A DNA stretch of 64,000 bases from Magnetococcales bacterium WMHbin3 (GTDB lineage: Bacteria; Pseudomonadota; Magnetococcia; Magnetococcales; Magnetaquicoccaceae). Where the stretch lies: assembly GCA_002753185.1 (NCBI GenBank), contig PDZX01000018.1:1-64000 (forward strand), in the 5' to 3' direction. Of the stretch, positions 6,860 to 17,454 are shown in pieces (the first letter of the stretch is position 1; every line of letters begins with the position of its first letter). The translations under genes and the position numbers were made by a program. The notes beneath the pieces were generated by a model. That model searched no databases, had not been told where the DNA came from, and was given only the letters and a program-made list of their open reading frames with translations.

Positions 6860-9018
6860 TGCCTCGCGTCCTCTTCCAAAAGGGTGTGCAACATCGCCTC
6901 CGCATCCCGCATCCGGTAATGGCGCGCCAGATCCGCCAGGGTGGCGATCCGCTCCCGCCACGCATCGTCGAGCCGCAGCCCCTCCAGACGCGCCAACACC
7001 TCCAGACACCCCTTGGGTTGCCGGGCATGCAGCGGGGCGCGCAGTTCACGCAACAGGTCGAACAGTTCGGCGCGCCGCGCGTCTGCGGCCTCCGGGGCAT
7101 CCCGATCCGTGACCGGTTCCGTGCCCCCCCCGTCCGCCGGCCCGGAACCCATGCGCATTCGAATCGTGAACCGGAAACAACTACCTTGTCCCGGTTCGCT
7201 CTCCACGCCCAAAGTTCCCCCCAGTAACGTTACCAGTTCACGACACAAGGCCAGCCCCAGGCCCGTCCCGCCGAACCGCCGGTCGGCGTTCTCCTCGCCC
7301 TGCGTGAACAGCCCGAACAACTCCTCCCGACGCTCGCGGGGCATGCCGATTCCACTATCGCGCACCAGAAACGCCAACAATACGCCTTCCCCCTCCTGTT
7401 CCACAAGTTTCACCTCGACCCGCACCCACCCCCGCACGGTAAACTTGATGGCATTGTCCAGCAGATGAAACAAAACCTGCCGCAAACGCTGAAAATCCCC
7501 CACCAGATGCCCCGGCACCCCGGCGCCACAACGCCAGGTCACCGCCAGCCCCTTCTCCCTGGCCTGACGGCTGCAAAGACCCAAAACCTGACTCCAGACA
7601 TCATCGAGACGGAAATTCTCCTCCACGAGTTCCAGCCGCCGGGACTCCAGACGGGAAAAATCCAACAGATCGTCCACCAGTCGCAGCAGACGGGTGGCCG
7701 CCGCGTGCATTTTTTTCACCAGTTCCATGGCGCGCGCCGGCAACGCCTCCCGCGACAAGAGATCCCCCATACTCAAGACCGCGTGCAAGGGGGTGCGGAT
7801 CTCATGGCTCATGTTGGCCAGAAAGGCACTCTTGGCCCGGTTGGCCACCTCGGCCCGCTCCCTGGCCATCCCCCACTCCCGATAGAGATCGGACAGCCCA
7901 AGACGCATCGCCTCCATGGCCACGGCCAACGCGCCGATCTCGTCGCCGCCCTGCCGATCCACCGGGGTGGTGAAATCCCCCCCGCCGATGCGTTGACTCA
8001 CACGGGTCAACTGCCGCAAGGGGAGCACCACCGTGCGGTTCAGGGAAAAGAGCATGGCGCCGCCCATGACCAGGGTGGCCAGCAGGCCCACCAGCAAGGT
8101 CAGGGTCAGCAGGGTGTCGGTGGCACGGGTGAGGACGTGCAACGGCTCGATGGCCACCACCAGCAGGTCCGGCTCCACGAGCGCCAGGCTCGCCAGATAA
8201 CGCACCCCCCGCAGACGGATCTCCCGCACCCCCTCTTCCCCGCAACGTTGACTGGCGCAGCGCGCCACCTCCTCCTCCAGGGTCAACCCCAACAGGGCGC
8301 GATCATGGGCGAAACGGACCACCCCCTTGCCATCGGCAATCAGAAAGCCCCCTTCCCGGCCCACCGGAGAGCGCTCCGCCAGGCTCCGCAAGAAGGCCGG
8401 TCGCATGGTGACAACCAGATAGCCCGCCAGAGGACCCGCCCGTTTGCCGCCCATGCCGGAGGTCAGCCGCAACCCCTGCCCCCCCAGCACGGCCCACTCC
8501 CCGTTGTCGGGATTGTCGGCCATGGCATGGTGGGGACGATCCCCCCGCCGCGAGAGTTCCCGAAAAAACGCACCGCCCCCCTCCATTTCCGACTGGTTGG
8601 GCAGGTCATGGGAGGTGACGCGGGTGTCCTCCTGGCCATCCGGACGCAACAGACGCACCTCGTAGTAATCGGCAATCGCCTGCTGGAAACCGGTGAACAG
8701 CCGGATCAGGGTGGGTTGCAGCAGACCGTAGCGCTCTCCGTCATCCGCAGCGGCCAGATATTTTTCCAGGATTTCGGAGCGGCTGAAGACCTCCAGATGG
8801 GAATCCATGGCCGCCAGATGACGCTCGATGGCCACCCTGGCCTGCAGCAGGGCATTGCGCACCTCCCCACGGGCGCTGGCCACGCGGGAGTCGCGCAACT
8901 CACCGTAGGCCAGACCTCCCAGGGTCGCCAGGGAGAGCATCAGAATGGGCAACACCAGCAGGGCCAGGCGGAGTTGCAGATTGTGCGTGAAAACGAATCG
9001 ATGCATTGGCAAAATCAT
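6856..9018 (-). CDS. Double-Cache sensor histidine kinase with HAMP
   Basis: A 720-residue transmembrane kinase. The first membrane helix is at about 14-34, then a periplasmic double-Cache region to about 300, a second helix at about 303-326, HAMP, HisKA with '[12 protein letters not shown]' (about residue 405) and HATPase with 'DSGIGMP' and '[10 protein letters not shown]'. There is no receiver domain. The final 65 residues ('LHARQPKGCLEVL') match the end of the hybrid kinase at 3077-5710, suggesting a shared docking or dimer module. The ATG at 9018 is preceded by GAGG at a good distance; a GTG nine bases earlier is the alternative. It is the first gene of the operon that continues through FIST to CheR. 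Confidence 0.9.
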   Translation of the reverse strand: MILPMHRFVFTHNLQLRLALLVLPILMLSLATLGGLAYGELRDSRVASARGEVRNALLQARVAIERHLAAMDSHLEVFSRSEILEKYLAAADDGERYGLLQPTLIRLFTGFQQAIADYYEVRLLRPDGQEDTRVTSHDLPNQSEMEGGGAFFRELSRRGDRPHHAMADNPDNGEWAVLGGQGLRLTSGMGGKRAGPLAGYLVVTMRPAFLRSLAERSPVGREGGFLIADGKGVVRFAHDRALLGLTLEEEVARCASQRCGEEGVREIRLRGVRYLASLALVEPDLLVVAIEPLHVLTRATDTLLTLTLLVGLLATLVMGGAMLFSLNRTVVLPLRQLTRVSQRIGGGDFTTPVDRQGGDEIGALAVAMEAMRLGLSDLYREWGMARERAEVANRAKSAFLANMSHEIRTPLHAVLSMGDLLSREALPARAMELVKKMHAAATRLLRLVDDLLDFSRLESRRLELVEENFRLDDVWSQVLGLCSRQAREKGLAVTWRCGAGVPGHLVGDFQRLRQVLFHLLDNAIKFTVRGWVRVEVKLVEQEGEGVLLAFLVRDSGIGMPRERREELFGLFTQGEENADRRFGGTGLGLALCRELVTLLGGTLGVESEPGQGSCFRFTIRMRMGSGPADGGGTEPVTDRDAPEAADARRAELFDLLRELRAPLHARQPKGCLEVLARLEGLRLDDAWRERIATLADLARHYRMRDAEAMLHTLLEEDARQ

Positions 9019-9093
9019 GGATGCCACCTCGTTGTTTCGGTTATCATGACCACGTCGTCACCACCTGGCAGCGGCTCTTGACCCGGAGGCTCC

Positions 9094-11379
9094 ATGAGCA
9101 CGGAAAAAATTCTTCTCGTCGAGGATTCCAAGGCTTTCGCCACACTGTTGGGCAAAGAGCTGGCAACCCGGCTGCCCTATCTGGAGGTGGTCCTGGCGAC
9201 CACGCGCAAGGATGCGGCCAAGGCGATCGCCCTGGCCAGGGGGGAGTTCCTGCTCGGCATCCTGGATCTGCACCTGCCGGACGCCCCGAACGGTGAGATC
9301 GTGGACACGGTGCTGGCCAAGAAGATCCCGTCCATCATCCTGACCTCCAGCTTCAACGCCGAATGGCAACAACAACTGCTGGCAAGACAGATACTGGATT
9401 ATTTCGTCAAAAGCCACTATGGCGCAATCCATACCGTGATCCATTTCATCGAACGCTATTATCGAAACGCATCGATCCAGGCAATGGTGGTGGACGACTC
9501 GCGCAGTTCCCGCCTGCTGCTGGCCGGGCTGTTGCGGCGCTACCGGCTGCAGGTCCTGGAGGCGGACAACGGCAACGACGCCCTGAAACTCCTCGAACAG
9601 GAGCCGGGGATCCGGCTGCTGTTGACCGACTACCACATGCCGGGCATGGACGGCTTCGAGTTGACCAAAAAGGTCCGCGCCCGCCACTCCGGGGAAGAAC
9701 TAGCGATCATCGGGCTTTCCGCCCAGGGCGACCCGCATCTTTCCGCCAAATTCCTCAAGCACGGGGCCAACGACTTCATCGGCAAACCGTTCCAGATCGA
9801 GGAGCTGTTGTGCCGGGTGTTCCAGAACCTGGACCTGATCGAAAAGATCCGCGCCATATCGGGCGCCGCCGAGACCGCCCGGCGGGCCAGCCAGACCAAG
9901 AGCGCCTTTCTGGCCAACATGAGCCATGAGATCCGCACGCCGATGAACGCCATCATCGGCATGACGGATCTGGTGCTGGCCACCCCGCTGGAAGCGGAAC
10001 AGCAAGCGCGCATCCGGATCGTGCAGACCGCCGCCGATGAACTGCTGGCGCTCATCAACAACGTGCTGGACATCTCCAAGATCGAGGCGGGGCGGATCAC
10101 CCTGGAACGGATCCGCTTCGATCCCCGCGAGCGCATCGCCACCACCATGGCGATTCTGGAGATCAAGACACGGGAGAAGGGGTTGCGGCTGGAGGCGGAA
10201 ATCGCCCCGGAGGTGCCGCCATGGGTGGTGGGGGATCCGCACCGGCTGCATCAGATCATTTTGAACCTGTGCAACAACGCCATCAAGTTCACCGATTCCG
10301 GCGGGATCCGCATCGTGGTCGGGGAGGAGGAGGAGACGCGGGACGACCCGGAACACACGACCCTGCATGTGCGCATCATCGACACCGGGATCGGCATTCC
10401 GGAGGATCGGCTGGAGCTGATCTTCGGTCGTTTCACCCAGGCCGAGGAGTCCACCACGCGGCAGTATGGCGGCACCGGTCTGGGGCTGGCCATCTGCAAG
10501 CATCTGGTGGAGCTGCACCGTGGGCGCGTCTGGGTGGAGAGCCGGGTGGGTCATGGCAGCGTCTTTCATTTCACCATCCGCTACGGCAGGCTTGCGGAAA
10601 GCGAGTTGCAGGAGGCCCTGGCCGATGCCAGAGAGCGACGCCCGGACACGGAGTTGCCGTCGGCGCGGGCCACTTTGCACATCCTCGTGGTGGACGACAA
10701 CCCCATCAACCGGCAGGTGGCCGGCTCGATTCTGAAGACGGCGGGTCATGGGGTGACCACGGCTCAGGACGGCGAGGAGGCCCTGGATGCCTGGGAGAAA
10801 GGGTCTTTCGATGTGATCCTGATGGACTTGAACCTGCCGGACATGTCGGGCTGCGAGGCAACGCAACGTCTGCGTTCCCTGGAGAGCGGGCAGGGCCGGG
10901 AGCGCACCCCGATCGTCGCCCTGACCGCCAATGTTCTGGCCGGGGTCAAGGAGCAATGTCTGGCATGCGGGATGGATGATTTCCTGGGCAAACCCTATCG
11001 GGGGCGGGAGCTGTTGGCGTTGGTGGAACGGATCGGCGGCGAGCCGGAGCCGGAACCCGCGCCCGCCCCCGTCACGCCGCCGCTGTTGGACGACGCCGCC
11101 GGGGACGAGCCGGGACGCGCGGCGTTTCGGGACGAGGCCCCCGGACGGCTGGCATCCCTGCAAGCGCTGTTGACGGGCGCCGACCCGATGGAGGCGCGTC
11201 GCGAGGTGGAGGCGCTCAAACGGCTTGCCGTGGCGGCGGGGGCCGTGTATTTTAAAATGGTGACAATTCGTATCGGTTCCGCGATCCTTGGGGAGGACCG
11301 GGAGAAGAGCGCCCGGCTGATGACCACGCTGGAGGAGTCGCTGGGTCAAACCCTGCGGGCCATTGGGGAGGGGAGGTGA
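9094..11379 (+). CDS. Hybrid histidine kinase REC-REC-HisKA-HATPase-REC with degenerate HPt
   Basis: A 761-residue soluble kinase that starts with two receiver domains (about 4-122 and 131-250; the second has '[15 protein letters not shown]') instead of a sensor domain, so its input is probably phosphorylation by other kinases. HisKA has '[12 protein letters not shown]' (H278), HATPase 'DTGIGIP' and '[10 protein letters not shown]', and a third receiver lies at about 525-645 ('[13 protein letters not shown]'). The end resembles an HPt, but the expected His of 'AHxLK' is Glu in '[13 protein letters not shown]', so it cannot pass phosphate on. The start is preceded by GGAGGCTCC. It diverges from the FIST operon across 75 bp. 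Confidence 0.9.
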
Positions 11380-11383
11380 AGGG

Positions 11384-11779
11384 GTGAACATCCTGATCGT
11401 CGATGACAATCCGATCAACCGCAAGATGCTGTGGGAGTACCTGAAGGGATATGGCGTTTGTGACATGGCGGGTGACGGCATGGAGGCCGTGGAGCAGTTC
11501 GAGGCCGAACTGACCACGGGTCATGCGTATGATCTGGTGCTGTTGGATCTGATGATGCCGCGCATGAACGGGCAGAACGCCCTGCGCCGGATCCGCGCCA
11601 TCGAGAGGCAGTACCGCATCGGTTCGCGGGACCAGGCGGTGGTGATCATCGTCACCGGGGCCGGATCGCCGGAGGAGTTGTTGAAGACCACCGACACCGA
11701 CTTCAAGACCGGCATTCTCAAGAAGCCGGTACGCTTGCCCGAATTGACGGGCATGTTGAAGCGTCACGGCCTGTTGTAA
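11384..11779 (+). CDS. Single-domain response regulator (CheY-like)
   Basis: A 131-residue stand-alone receiver: '[11 protein letters not shown]', phospho-acceptor in 'LVLLDLMMPRMNGQ', and the conserved lysine in 'LKKPVRL'. It has no output domain and so should act as a phosphate shuttle or by binding a partner. The start is a GTG at 11384 with a strong GGAGGTGAAGG site that overlaps the stop of the hybrid kinase, 4 bp upstream; that kinase is the obvious phosphodonor. An earlier in-frame start inside the kinase gene would only add a Gly-rich tag. It converges with umuC, whose stop lies 2 bp away. Confidence 0.88.
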   Translation: MNILIVDDNPINRKMLWEYLKGYGVCDMAGDGMEAVEQFEAELTTGHAYDLVLLDLMMPRMNGQNALRRIRAIERQYRIGSRDQAVVIIVTGAGSPEELLKTTDTDFKTGILKKPVRLPELTGMLKRHGLL

Positions 11780-11781
11780 TC

Positions 11782-13068
11782 TCAACCCGCCCGCGCCGTG
11801 GGCAGGTCGGCCCAGCGGGTGGTATAGCATGGGGAGCGGTTGGAGGCCCGCGTGGACCAGCGCCGTTGTCTGCCTTCCCCGGCCACATGGATGATGTCGG
11901 ATCCGAACCGGTTACGCATGGCATCCAGGGTGGTCATCAACGCCTGGCTCTTGCGTTCGGCCTGCGGATCGGCAAAGAGGTTTCTTGCCAGTGTCCTGGC
12001 GTTTTCCAGTTCCAGGAGCAGCACCCCGGCCCGTCGATAAGCGTAACCAGTACGATAAACAGCTTCCAGTCCACGTTTTGCGGCGTTGGCCAGTTGCAGT
12101 TCGTCTGCGGTTGGTGTCGGCAGTGTCAGGGTGATGCCTTGCCGGTATTGCGGTTCCCCCTCCCGGAAGGGGCTGGTGCGGATGAACAGGTGCAGAGCGC
12201 CGGCCACTGATCCTTGTCGCCGCAGCCGTTGTCCCGCGCGGCGCACGAAGGTGAGGACCGCCTCGGCCAGTTCGTCGAAATCGTATACCGGTTTACCAAA
12301 CGAACGAGTGGACTGAATTTGTTGGTTGGACGCCGCGATCTCTCCCAACTGCAGACAAGAAATGCCGCGCAGTTCCAGCCCGATCCGTTCCATGACCACG
12401 GAGAAGCGCCGTCGCAGCCAGCGCGGATCCGCCTGGCGCAGGGCCAGCACATGGGCGATGCCCACGGCGCGCAACCCTTCCGCCAACCGGGATCCCACCC
12501 CCCACACCTCGCCCACGTCGATGCCGGCCAGCAGGGGGAGCAATTCCGCTTCCGGGACCATGTTGAGGTTGCACACCCCATTGTATTCGGGTCGTTTCTT
12601 GGACAGATGGTTGGCCAGTTTCGCCAAAGTCTTGGTGGAAGCGATGCCGACGCCCACCGGCAACCCCAGGCAACGCGCCACCTCCTGGCGCATGTTGTTT
12701 CCCAATTCGGTCACGTCCGCGCCCGTGCCCAGATCGAGAAAACATTCATCAATGGAATACACCTCCTGCCGCGCCCCGAACCCGGCCAGCAGGCTCATCA
12801 TGCGCCGCGACATATCCACATAGAGGGCGTGATTGCCGGACAACCCGACGATGCCATGCCGCTGGGCCAGGGGTTTCAGCCGGAACCACGGTTCCCCCAT
12901 TTTGACCCCCAACGCCTTGACCTCATTGGATCGCGCCACCGCGCAGCCGTCGTTGTTGGACAAAACCACAACCGGTTTACGATTCAACCCCGGATCGAAC
13001 ACCCGCTCGCAGGAGACGTAGAAGTTGTTGCCGTCGATCAGGGCGATATTTTGTCCATGGCAAGTCAT
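11782..13068 (-). CDS. umuC: UmuC-type Y-family DNA polymerase (error-prone)
   Basis: A 428-residue Y-family polymerase of the UmuC/Pol V type, of normal length. The palm motifs 'IALIDGNNFYVSCERVFDP' and 'YSIDECFLDL' supply the metal-binding acidic residues, followed by a helix-hairpin-helix region ('VWGVGSRLAEGLRAVGI') and the little-finger domain, where 'STRSFGKPV' is typical of UmuC. It would copy past DNA lesions together with a UmuD' dimer. The ATG at 13068 overlaps the stop of the short umuD (ATGA), fixing the start. It is the third gene of a coupled SOS operon driven from the promoter at 14041-14070. Confidence 0.93.
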   Translation of the reverse strand: MTCHGQNIALIDGNNFYVSCERVFDPGLNRKPVVVLSNNDGCAVARSNEVKALGVKMGEPWFRLKPLAQRHGIVGLSGNHALYVDMSRRMMSLLAGFGARQEVYSIDECFLDLGTGADVTELGNNMRQEVARCLGLPVGVGIASTKTLAKLANHLSKKRPEYNGVCNLNMVPEAELLPLLAGIDVGEVWGVGSRLAEGLRAVGIAHVLALRQADPRWLRRRFSVVMERIGLELRGISCLQLGEIAASNQQIQSTRSFGKPVYDFDELAEAVLTFVRRAGQRLRRQGSVAGALHLFIRTSPFREGEPQYRQGITLTLPTPTADELQLANAAKRGLEAVYRTGYAYRRAGVLLLELENARTLARNLFADPQAERKSQALMTTLDAMRNRFGSDIIHVAGEGRQRRWSTRASNRSPCYTTRWADLPTARAG

Positions 13069-13415
13069 ACCACCACCCGATGCACCGACCAGCGCACCAC
13101 CCCCCACACCTCCAGATCCTGACCGGGACGCAGACGGATCTCCGGGTGATCCGGGTGGGCGGAACGCAAGATCACCGCGCCGCCGCGCCGCACCAACTGC
13201 TTGACCACGAAGCCCCCGTCCAATACCGCGATCACCACGCTCCCATTCCCTGGGACCACGGCCCGGTCCACCACCAGCAGGTCCCCGTGGTGAATGCCAA
13301 GGCCATCCATGGCGCTCCCCTCCACGCGCCAGAAAAAGGTCGCTTCGCGATGCTCGATCAGCAATTGCGTCAGGTCCAACCCGTCCACCGCCTCGTCCTG
13401 CAACGGATTCATCAT
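13065..13415 (-). CDS. umuD: Short UmuD homologue, UmuD'-like and lacking the catalytic serine
   Basis: A 116-residue S24-family protein. Aligned by eye with E. coli UmuD it begins just before 'LDLTQLLIEH' (E. coli 'IDLNQLLIQH'), so the N-terminal arm and cleavage site are absent and it corresponds to processed UmuD'. The nucleophile motif GDSM is 'GSAM' at 33-36, with Ala at the serine position; the catalytic lysine remains in 'FVVKQL' (K72). It should therefore be a ready-made UmuC partner needing no RecA-stimulated cleavage. Phage P1 HumD is a known UmuD'-like precedent. The ATG at 13415 overlaps the upstream stop (ATGA), so the short form is real. Confidence 0.85.
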   Translation of the reverse strand: MMNPLQDEAVDGLDLTQLLIEHREATFFWRVEGSAMDGLGIHHGDLLVVDRAVVPGNGSVVIAVLDGGFVVKQLVRRGGAVILRSAHPDHPEIRLRPGQDLEVWGVVRWSVHRVVV

Positions 13416-14005
13416 GGCCGCCGATACCTCCGCACCAGACCGACCACCACCCCGAACAAGGTCAAACTCTCCCTGGGGCGCAACACCGGATAGGCGGGAT
13501 TGGCCGGATGCAAGGCCCAGCCACTCTCCTCCCGTACCAAAGTTTTGAAAGTAAACTCCCCGTCCACCTCGGCCACCACCATCGCCCCGTCGTACGCCTC
13601 CCGCCCCCGCTCCACCACCAGCCAATCCCCGTCATGCACCCCCGCCCCCTGCATGGAATCCCCACGCACCGGCACCAGCACCGTCACCGAAGGGTTCTCC
13701 ACCAGCAAGGAATCGATCAAGACCGGCTGCTCCGACGCATCCAACGCCATCTCCGGCAAGCCGGCCCGCACCGTGGCCTCCGCCAGGGGACGCTCGAAAA
13801 ACCGGTCACACGGCGTCCACTCCCCGTCCGGGGTGCGCCGCACATACCCCGCCGCCTCCAGACGCCGCAACAGCTTGGCCACCGCCGACTTGGCCGTCAC
13901 CCCCACCACCGCCCCCAGCCGCGCATACGACGGCCACGCCCGATGACGGGCATAATAGTCCCGCAAGGCATCCAAATGATCGACGTCACGATTGACAGGC
14001 GCCAT
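13412..14005 (-). CDS. LexA-like repressor with UmuD-type self-cleaving domain
   Basis: A 197-residue protein joining a LexA-like winged helix-turn-helix (about 8-62; 'WPSYARLGAVVGVTAKSAV') to an S24 peptidase domain closer to UmuD than to LexA. The likely cleavage bond is A81-G82 in 'VRAGLPE', matching Cys-Gly in E. coli UmuD. The nucleophile is S117 in 'RGDSM' and the lysine is K154 in 'FTFKTL'. It probably represses its own operon until RecA-stimulated self-cleavage. The nearest known analogue in concept is UmuDAb of Acinetobacter. The ATG at 14005 has AAAGGAG upstream. It is the first gene of the operon with the short umuD and umuC. Confidence 0.85.
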   Translation of the reverse strand: MAPVNRDVDHLDALRDYYARHRAWPSYARLGAVVGVTAKSAVAKLLRRLEAAGYVRRTPDGEWTPCDRFFERPLAEATVRAGLPEMALDASEQPVLIDSLLVENPSVTVLVPVRGDSMQGAGVHDGDWLVVERGREAYDGAMVVAEVDGEFTFKTLVREESGWALHPANPAYPVLRPRESLTLFGVVVGLVRRYRRP

Positions 14006-14040
14006 GGCACGCTCCTTTGGCGAAAATCCACGATGCCATC

Positions 14041-14070
14041 ATTATAGAGTACGATCGTTCTCCATGTCAA
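14041..14070 (-). promoter_or_regulatory. Consensus sigma-70 promoter with palindromic operator in its spacer
   Basis: Read on the minus strand, TTGACA (14070-14065) and TATAAT (14046-14041) are both perfect and 18 bp apart. Nearly all of the spacer, 14062-14047, is the palindrome GAGAACGATCGTACTC, which matches its own reverse complement at 14 of 16 bases. The promoter points into the LexA/UmuD hybrid gene 36 bp downstream. A strong promoter blocked by a dimeric repressor bound between its elements is the expected design of an autorepressed SOS operon. The palindrome resembles GAAC-N4-GTTC LexA boxes. Confidence 0.85.
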
Positions 14071-16332: not shown

Positions 16333-16476
16333 GGTGAACCGCCACGAGGTGTGGTAGAGTACTGGCCAACGGAAAACGAGCGCACGCCGTCCGGGGAAAC
16401 GGCACTCGAAATGCATCCGCAAGGGATGAAATATGGCGCGGGTTGGCGGTCAGAGGATTTGGAGATACGCTTCATT

Positions 16477-17454
16477 ATGAAAAAAATATTATGTGTTGAC
16501 GACGACAGTAACAACCTACGGCTAATCAGACAAATCCTCAAGGATCATTATCAACTCATCTTCGCACCGAACGGACCCAGGGCGCTGGAGGCGGCTGTCC
16601 AACACATGCCCGACATGGCCCTGTTGGACATCATGATGCCGGAAATGAACGGCTATGAGGTGTGCGAACAACTCAAGGCCAACCCCGCCACCAGGCATAT
16701 CCCCGTCATCTTCGTGACCGCCATGGGTGAAGTGGCGGATGAAGCGCGCGGCTTCGACGTTGGCGCGGTGGACTACATCCAAAAGCCCATCTCCGGCCCG
16801 GTGATGCTGCGTCGGGTGCGGACCCATCTCAATCTGGTCCGCGTCCAGGAACTGGAAGAGAGCCAAAAAGCCGCCATCTTCATGCTTGGCGAGGCGGGAC
16901 ACTACAACGACACCGACACCGGCGTCCACATCTGGCGCATGTCGGCCTATGCGCGCGCGCTGGCCGACGCGCTGGGATGGCCAACCCACCTGGCCGAGCG
17001 GCTGGAATTTGCCGCCCCCATGCACGATACCGGCAAGATCGGCATTCCCGACGCCATTCTCAAGGCGCCCCGCAAGTTGACCGCCGAGGAATGGGACGTG
17101 ATGAAGACCCATGCCGAAATCGGCTTTTCCATCCTCAGTATGAGCGAAACTTCAATTTTCATCATGGCGGCCGCAATCGCGCGCTACCATCATGAAAAAT
17201 GGGATGGAAGCGGCTACCCCGCCGGCCTCGCGGGAACCGCGATCCCGGAATCGGCACGCATCGTCGCGATCGCCGACGTGTTCGACGCCCTGACCATGAA
17301 ACGCCCCTACAAGGAACCTTGGGGCTTGGAAGAGGCCGTGGTGGAGATCAGGAGGTGCGCGGGCAGCCATTTTGAACCACGCCTGGTCGATCGGTTTGCG
17401 AGCATCCTGCCCACCATCATCGCCATCAAGGAAAAATGGGATCAGAGTTCGTGA
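16477..17454 (+). CDS. Response regulator with HD-GYP domain (c-di-GMP phosphodiesterase)
   Basis: A 325-residue protein: receiver (about 1-120; 'ILCVDDDSNN', phospho-acceptor in 'MALLDIMMPEMNGYEV', lysine in 'IQKPI') and HD-GYP (about 135-320; 'MHDTGKIGIP' and 'HHEKWDGSGYP'), so active c-di-GMP hydrolysis is expected. It is a close paralogue of the protein at 1990-3072. The ATG at 16477 begins the receiver exactly, with GGAG about a dozen bases upstream; earlier in-frame starts would add an unrelated leader. It follows the output-less Cache sensor, but no kinase lies beside it, so its phosphodonor is unknown. Confidence 0.9.
   Translation: MKKILCVDDDSNNLRLIRQILKDHYQLIFAPNGPRALEAAVQHMPDMALLDIMMPEMNGYEVCEQLKANPATRHIPVIFVTAMGEVADEARGFDVGAVDYIQKPISGPVMLRRVRTHLNLVRVQELEESQKAAIFMLGEAGHYNDTDTGVHIWRMSAYARALADALGWPTHLAERLEFAAPMHDTGKIGIPDAILKAPRKLTAEEWDVMKTHAEIGFSILSMSETSIFIMAAAIARYHHEKWDGSGYPAGLAGTAIPESARIVAIADVFDALTMKRPYKEPWGLEEAVVEIRRCAGSHFEPRLVDRFASILPTIIAIKEKWDQSS

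Follow-up and report, generated by a model that had tools for sequence, protein, structure and literature searches.

A candidate LexA-independent, autorepressed DNA polymerase V operon with a LexA/UmuD hybrid repressor and a pre-shortened UmuD in Magnetococcales

When an operon carries a repressor-like gene of its own in front of umuD and umuC, and its umuD seems to be already shortened, the question arises of which protein keeps the mutagenic polymerase silent, and of how many proteolytic events are needed to switch it on. We addressed this question at a locus of Magnetococcales bacterium WMHbin3, found in a stretch of 64,000 nucleotides (analysed as a whole and called here “the window”) of a draft genome of 157 contigs that is about 93% complete. 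We consider it probable, on grounds taken from the sequence, that this locus is a LexA-independent, autorepressed DNA polymerase V operon, the sole proteolytic control point of which would be the repressor itself.

The three coupled genes

The earlier note on this DNA had described coupled wHTH-S24, short S24 and UmuC genes, and this arrangement is borne out by the positions of the open reading frames, the two ATGA overlaps and the domain matches (Table 1). The operon promoter agrees with the sigma-70 consensus at 12 of 12 positions, most of the spacer between its -35 and -10 elements is taken up by the palindrome GAGAACGATCGTACTC, and a GGAGG ribosome-binding site lies immediately 5' of the gene 2 ATG. 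On the opposite strand, the 3' neighbour of the operon is a response regulator; response regulators, including a response-regulator/histidine-kinase hybrid, surround the operon (window 9094-11779 and 16351-17454).

Table 1. Coordinates of the operon features in the window
Feature	Position	Strand	Detail or basis
Gene 3, UmuC, Y-family polymerase, 428 aa	11782..13068	-	IMS, IMS_C, DUF4113
Gene 2 stop/umuC start overlap, 4 bases	13065..13068	-	ATGA
Gene 2, short S24, putative pre-shortened UmuD, 116 aa	13065..13415	-	ORF + Pfam/NCBIfam
Gene 2 Lys72, kept	13200-13202	-	
Gene 2 Ala35 at the catalytic Ser position	13311-13313	-	GSAM vs GxSM
Gene 1 stop/gene 2 start overlap, 4 bases	13412..13415	-	ATGA
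Gene 1, wHTH-S24 hybrid, 197 aa	13412..14005	-	ORF + Pfam/NCBIfam
Gene 1 catalytic Lys154	13544-13546	-	
Gene 1 catalytic Ser117	13655-13657	-	
Gene 1 predicted cleavage bond Ala81-Gly82	13760-13765	-	codons of both residues
Promoter	14041..14070	-	-35 TTGACA 14070-14065, 18-base spacer, -10 TATAAT 14046-14041
Predicted operator, 16-base palindrome	14047..14062		GAGTACGATCGTTCTC on the forward strand, GAGAACGATCGTACTC on the minus strand

The product of gene 1 is fairly named a LexA/UmuD hybrid because its S24 half is nearest to UmuD and the profile of its family matches LexA over the full length. Pfam recognizes Peptidase_S24 in it (E 1e-24), and its N-terminus scores 22.8 bits against LexA_DNA_bind, just below the curated cut-off of 23.7, with the whole protein reaching 90.5 bits against the NCBIfam LexA model TIGR00498, below the family cut-off of 110.95. 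A profile built from 17 homologues aligns end to end with solved LexA, DNA-binding domain included (3k2z, E 9e-25; 3jso, 2e-22), its best score being to UmuD (4e-28), and PDB sequence searches place the S24 half nearest to UmuD (1.8e-18, vs 6.7e-12 for full-length LexA). No CI/XRE-type HTH was matched by Pfam in the N-terminus, where the match is LexA-like, and the protein has the LexA architecture, namely a LexA-type wHTH joined to an S24 domain with Ala-Gly, Ser and Lys. The wHTH assignment rests on sequence profiles, given that the structure prediction, made from an alignment of 3 sequences, is of low confidence (mean pLDDT 47). A81, G82, S117 and K154 are invariant in 65 of 65 hybrid homologues, which fits a repressor that would cleave itself. 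The homologue of the sister species, located on a Magnetococcales contig, is 92% identical, with a dN/dS of 0.23.

Gene 3 contains IMS, IMS_C and DUF4113, all above the Pfam cut-offs, and scores 409.8 bits against the NCBIfam UmuC model, slightly below 431; its dN/dS relative to the sister is 0.17. The sister operon (genome G001) has an insertion that separates the shortened umuD from umuC (L107:9978-12432), namely a Septu-type defence pair made up of a PtuA ATPase and a PtuB HNH protein. This pair, which also has promoter-like sequence of its own, is possibly under SOS control there. In another genome, G014, umuC is split by two tandem IS3-like transposase gene pairs (L105, reverse strand 7881-10832), beyond which the remainder of the umuC end is found.

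Gene 2 carries Peptidase_S24 (Pfam, E 6e-20) and scores 113.1 bits against the NCBIfam UmuD model NF007621, above its cut-off of 110, and 40.5 bits against the HumD model NF051876, below its cut-off of 120. The other Magnetococcales operons encode at this place, in 11 of 11 cases, a full UmuD that has both the AGFPSPA cleavage segment and the GxSM serine, so that among the 13 members of the order the AGFPS segment is absent only from the window genome and its sister, in both of which about 11 codons after the gene 2 start are deleted and the position of the start codon is unchanged. The window protein begins MMNPLQDEA, at the place where UmuD' would start GFPSPAQDEA, and the catalytic serine has given way to alanine (Table 1); in the sister, the catalytic lysine has also changed, to arginine. 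Because both proteins nest inside the clade of cleavable UmuD in the tree, the shortened form is the derived state. Between the two species gene 2 has a dN/dS of 0.10, lower than that of either other gene, with about 94% identity, the same start and an open frame in both, and this ratio argues that the gene has been kept working. Gene 2 can be read as a genetically made UmuD' under purifying selection. A recent duplication of gene 1 was ruled out as its origin by the separate clades of the two in the tree, and an upstream in-frame start is unlikely, as the ATG and the GGAGG stand at the same position as in relatives. No close relative of gene 2 was found on viral contigs. The pre-shortened UmuD that had been claimed for this operon is thus strengthened, its shortening being derived, common to two species and coupled to the loss of the catalytic serine; the gene order wHTH-S24/S24/UmuC recurs in 13 of 13 Magnetococcales operons, but the short S24 is confined to two of them, the other 11 having a cleavable UmuD.

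The promoter palindrome and the canonical LexA

At the hybrid's own promoter, the palindrome is present in the same place in 13 of 13 Magnetococcales operons, and it is also found, mostly as a variant, at hybrid promoters in a second bacterial family. GAGAACGATCGTACTC is the sole exact copy in its own genome, where 16 sites lie at 3 mismatches from it vs 13 for the reversed control; none of the four of these sites that were inspected has an evident promoter, and the eight better-looking extra sites in relatives proved to be coding, terminator-like or of low complexity, again with no evident promoter. As to control of a LexA-type regulon by gene 1, the operon palindrome was found at no other promoter among the sites inspected. 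When the upstream regions of hybrids from all groups were scored for GWACGNNCGTWC, 32 of the 43 reached at least 9 out of 10, against a mean of 0.5 and a maximum of 3 for shuffled sequences; this result, together with conservation in 13 of 13 operons, makes the palindrome and the gene order more than chance.

The operator also changes along with the recognition helix of the hybrid, a co-variation that was judged by eye: helices of the type [SA]K[SA][AG]V are paired with GAACGNNCGTTC, SKQGAV is paired with GTACGNNCGTAC, and SKRGAA is paired with GTATCCG-type sites. Genome G363 has its umuDC at a different locus from the hybrid, and one and the same operator pair, with a spacing of 24 bases, is found at both. 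Helix co-variation and these operator pairs are the strongest computational reasons for proposing that the hybrid itself would read the palindrome and control umuDC.

The host genome does encode a canonical LexA (170.5 bits, TIGR00498), and from the promoters of canonical lexA genes we inferred CCTAATN4ATTAGG as the LexA box of the order, which is common to many lexA promoters wherever lexA is present. This box was not found within 250 bases upstream of any of the 13 operons, nor at the recA promoters of the order that were examined, and conversely, the operon palindrome was not found at lexA or recA promoters of the order. Five hybrid-bearing genomes that are at least 95% complete have no LexA above the family cut-off. 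Canonical LexA is patchy in Magnetococcales, and many near-complete genomes have none above the cut-off. Two suppositions of the earlier note gain from these data: that the first protein would bind DNA, considering that its homologues keep the LexA-like wHTH and the promoter palindrome varies with the recognition helix, and that no separate LexA box governs the operon, the host having a canonical LexA with a different inferred box that is absent from 13 of 13 operon promoters.

Relatives of the hybrid in other bacteria and on viral contigs

Hybrids that are 41-47% identical were also found in most of the genomes sampled from one other family (f18), and in the genomes examined there the hybrid is followed by a Y-family polymerase, scoring higher with DinB models than with UmuC models, without a separate UmuD between them. 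The full hybrid-UmuD-UmuC operon was found in one genome outside the order (G269), and a few further genomes outside Magnetococcales have the hybrid alone. Near-full-length hybrids, at 35-55% identity, are also encoded on 20 IMG/VR viral contigs (L194-L213), with the palindrome at the hybrid promoter in 18 of the 20, in 17 of them of the GAAC type and in one of the GTAC type; no umuDC was found near the hybrid on any of the 20. The hybrid repressors of L194-L212 have in most cases a GAGAACG-type operator. Where the viral contigs were read in detail, the hybrid and a serine integrase cassette are divergently oriented. Two genes of unknown family usually come after the hybrid on these contigs, in several of them a pair of about 412 and 321 aa, the pair of L201 being without a Pfam family. 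The combination of a hybrid with a Y-family polymerase is thus a wider theme, and the hybrid is present on phages too.

Mobile settings were also found in bacterial genomes. In G014 and G015 (L105 and L106), the whole operon adjoins a serine recombinase cassette, a second recA and phage-like replication genes, and in G017 it adjoins the same integrase type. Two genes of unknown family, of 387 and 314 aa, also belong to the setting of G014 and G015. Around the operon in the window and at the other Magnetococcales loci, no phage genes of the type seen in G014, G015 and the viral contigs were found. Beyond the window end, on the same contig and about 55 kb from the operon, there is an open reading frame (L122:4906-5277) that is 37.5% identical to a gene of the integrase cassette. 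A phage link for the hybrid family is likely. Among the plasmid hits, those from Rhodanobacter (L147 and L149) have an S24 repressor in a cassette together with imuA, a Y-family polymerase and the error-prone DnaE2.

Proposed switch, alternatives and meaning

We propose that a dimer of the gene 1 product would occupy the palindrome between the -35 and -10 elements of its own promoter, silencing the whole operon, and that after DNA damage RecA filaments would stimulate its self-cleavage at Ala81-Gly82, lifting repression and allowing the translation-coupled production of UmuD' from gene 2 and UmuC from gene 3. UmuD'2C could then assemble without a second cleavage step, because gene 2 starts almost exactly at the UmuD' start and would have no working protease. 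The other Magnetococcales would run the same operon with two cleavage steps, that of the repressor and then that of UmuD, whereas in the window species and its sister the second checkpoint would have been deleted, so that control would rest on repressor cleavage and on the customary activation of UmuD'2C by RecA. From gene order, coupling, promoter, operator, helix co-variation, the protease residues of gene 1, the losses of gene 2 and purifying selection, all of them seen in the sequence, we infer the binding, the repression, the RecA-dependent cleavage and the polymerase activity of this scheme.

The canonical LexA of the host invites another explanation, in which LexA controls the operon and gene 1 amounts to no more than an additional UmuD whose DNA-binding domain is vestigial; LexA is the regulator of many umuDC operons, and the operator core GAACN4GTTC resembles the Gram-positive LexA box. 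Nevertheless, the inferred box of the order is missing from all 13 operons, the operon palindrome is missing from the lexA promoters, several near-complete genomes carry the operon with no LexA above the cut-off, and the operator changes together with the hybrid's recognition helix, all of which make LexA control very improbable. Gene 2 could also be seen as a decaying pseudogene in an operon that is losing its pol V function, since its arm, cleavage site and catalytic serine are gone, and in the sister the lysine has additionally become arginine and the Septu pair separates gene 2 from gene 3. We regard this as highly unlikely, and rejected it on dN/dS, since the low ratio accompanies a frame that is open from the same start at about 94% identity in both species, and the deletion left intact the UmuD' part, the start codon and the ribosome-binding site.

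Two further alternatives deserve more weight, although neither is favoured. The operon may be a cassette belonging to a phage or mobile element, its repressor serving mainly as a prophage induction switch, as the homologues on viral contigs (divergent from serine integrases in those read in detail) and the operons beside integrases, second recA and phage-like genes would suggest; yet such phage genes are absent around the operon in the window and at the other Magnetococcales loci, where the nearest related open frame on the window's contig is about 55 kb off, and we hold this reading as tentative, noting that a phage cassette as the origin is compatible with an autorepressed pol V operon. It is also possible, if rather doubtful, that gene 1 is both a repressor and, after cleavage, a UmuD' subunit formed by its C-terminal fragment, alone or with gene 2. 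Its S24 half scores best against UmuD and not LexA, a UmuD'-like arm would remain after the cut (GLPEMALDASEQ), and the f18 hybrid directly precedes a Y-family polymerase with no separate UmuD; on the other hand, the S24 domains of the hybrids form their own clade apart from UmuD, and the f18 polymerase is by score closer to DinB models than to UmuC, while the dedicated UmuD kept by the Magnetococcales operons and the phage copies without a polymerase nearby argue that a UmuD role is unnecessary for retention of the hybrid. On a broader and equally speculative view, an undescribed family of LexA/UmuD hybrid repressors, spread over phages and two bacterial groups, would be a portable one-operon SOS switch repeatedly joined to error-prone polymerases, its own fragment serving as UmuD' where a separate UmuD is missing, and the window lineage would have hard-wired its separate UmuD as active. 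If so, where there is no separate UmuD, one cut would both open the operon and make the polymerase subunit.

Compared with known systems, the autorepressed pol V operon proposed here shares the UmuD-UmuC order and domain content with umuDC (pol V) of E. coli, a LexA-controlled operon with a cleavable UmuD, but has the repressor inside the operon and a putatively pre-shortened UmuD. HumD of phage P1 is naturally short and UmuD'-like and needs no cleavage; gene 2 is likewise short and UmuD'-like, although it groups with the UmuD of its own order and arose by deletion inside a umuDC operon. UmuDAb of Acinetobacter, with a UmuD-type S24 domain and a DNA-binding N-terminus, represses itself and umuDC genes independently of LexA, in a genus without LexA and with DdrR as a partner, repression being relieved by self-cleavage; its gene lies divergently to ddrR, and several umuDC loci are under its control (PMC4807011, PMC11332147, PMC7273328). 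The hybrid agrees with it in domain content, having a UmuD domain with an added N-terminus that is predicted to bind DNA, and may agree with it in targets, given the predicted operator at the hybrid's own umuDC promoter and at the unlinked umuDC of G363. In contrast, the HTH of UmuDAb escapes Pfam and gene 1 has a LexA-like wHTH, the UmuDAb operator spans 21 bases, with TTGA/TCAA arms around a GTnAC core (PMC11332147), unlike the simple palindrome GAGAACGNNCGTTCTC in the promoter spacer, and the present hybrid is cis-linked to UmuD' and UmuC in a genome that also encodes LexA. HdiR of Streptococcaceae is described as an S24 repressor acting on its own gene and on a umuC gene, with only the mutagenic cassette as its target in S. 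uberis (PMC8565304); it is placed there in a cluster with phage CI-like repressors, whereas the present hybrid matches LexA over its full length. The LexA2-imuA-imuB-imuC cassette of Pseudomonas putida and the lexA-imuB-C-polY operon of Geobacter (PMC3901139, PMC6511836) are similar in having a second LexA-type repressor gene at the head of the mutagenic operon that it controls, but they encode ImuA/ImuB/DnaE2 or ImuB-C, and no imuA, imuB or dnaE2 was found 3' of gene 1, where UmuD and UmuC stand. UmuDAb, HdiR, the LexA2 cassettes and HumD may each be seen as showing one part of the operon's proposed design, and no description of the full combination was found in open-licence papers.

In this species, one cleavage event, and not two, would be enough to switch the mutagenic polymerase on. 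The operon would show pol V mutagenesis run, apart from the LexA network, by a portable repressor that has an operator of its own, even in cells that carry LexA, and a source of such switches is suggested by the phage copies, which share the operator. The deletion in two sister species would amount to a natural test of the purpose of UmuD cleavage: because the second checkpoint is gone and the gene 2 protease is dead, repressor cleavage and RecA activation must there be sufficient control, and the matched operons, with two checkpoints in the relatives and one here, would permit a direct comparison.
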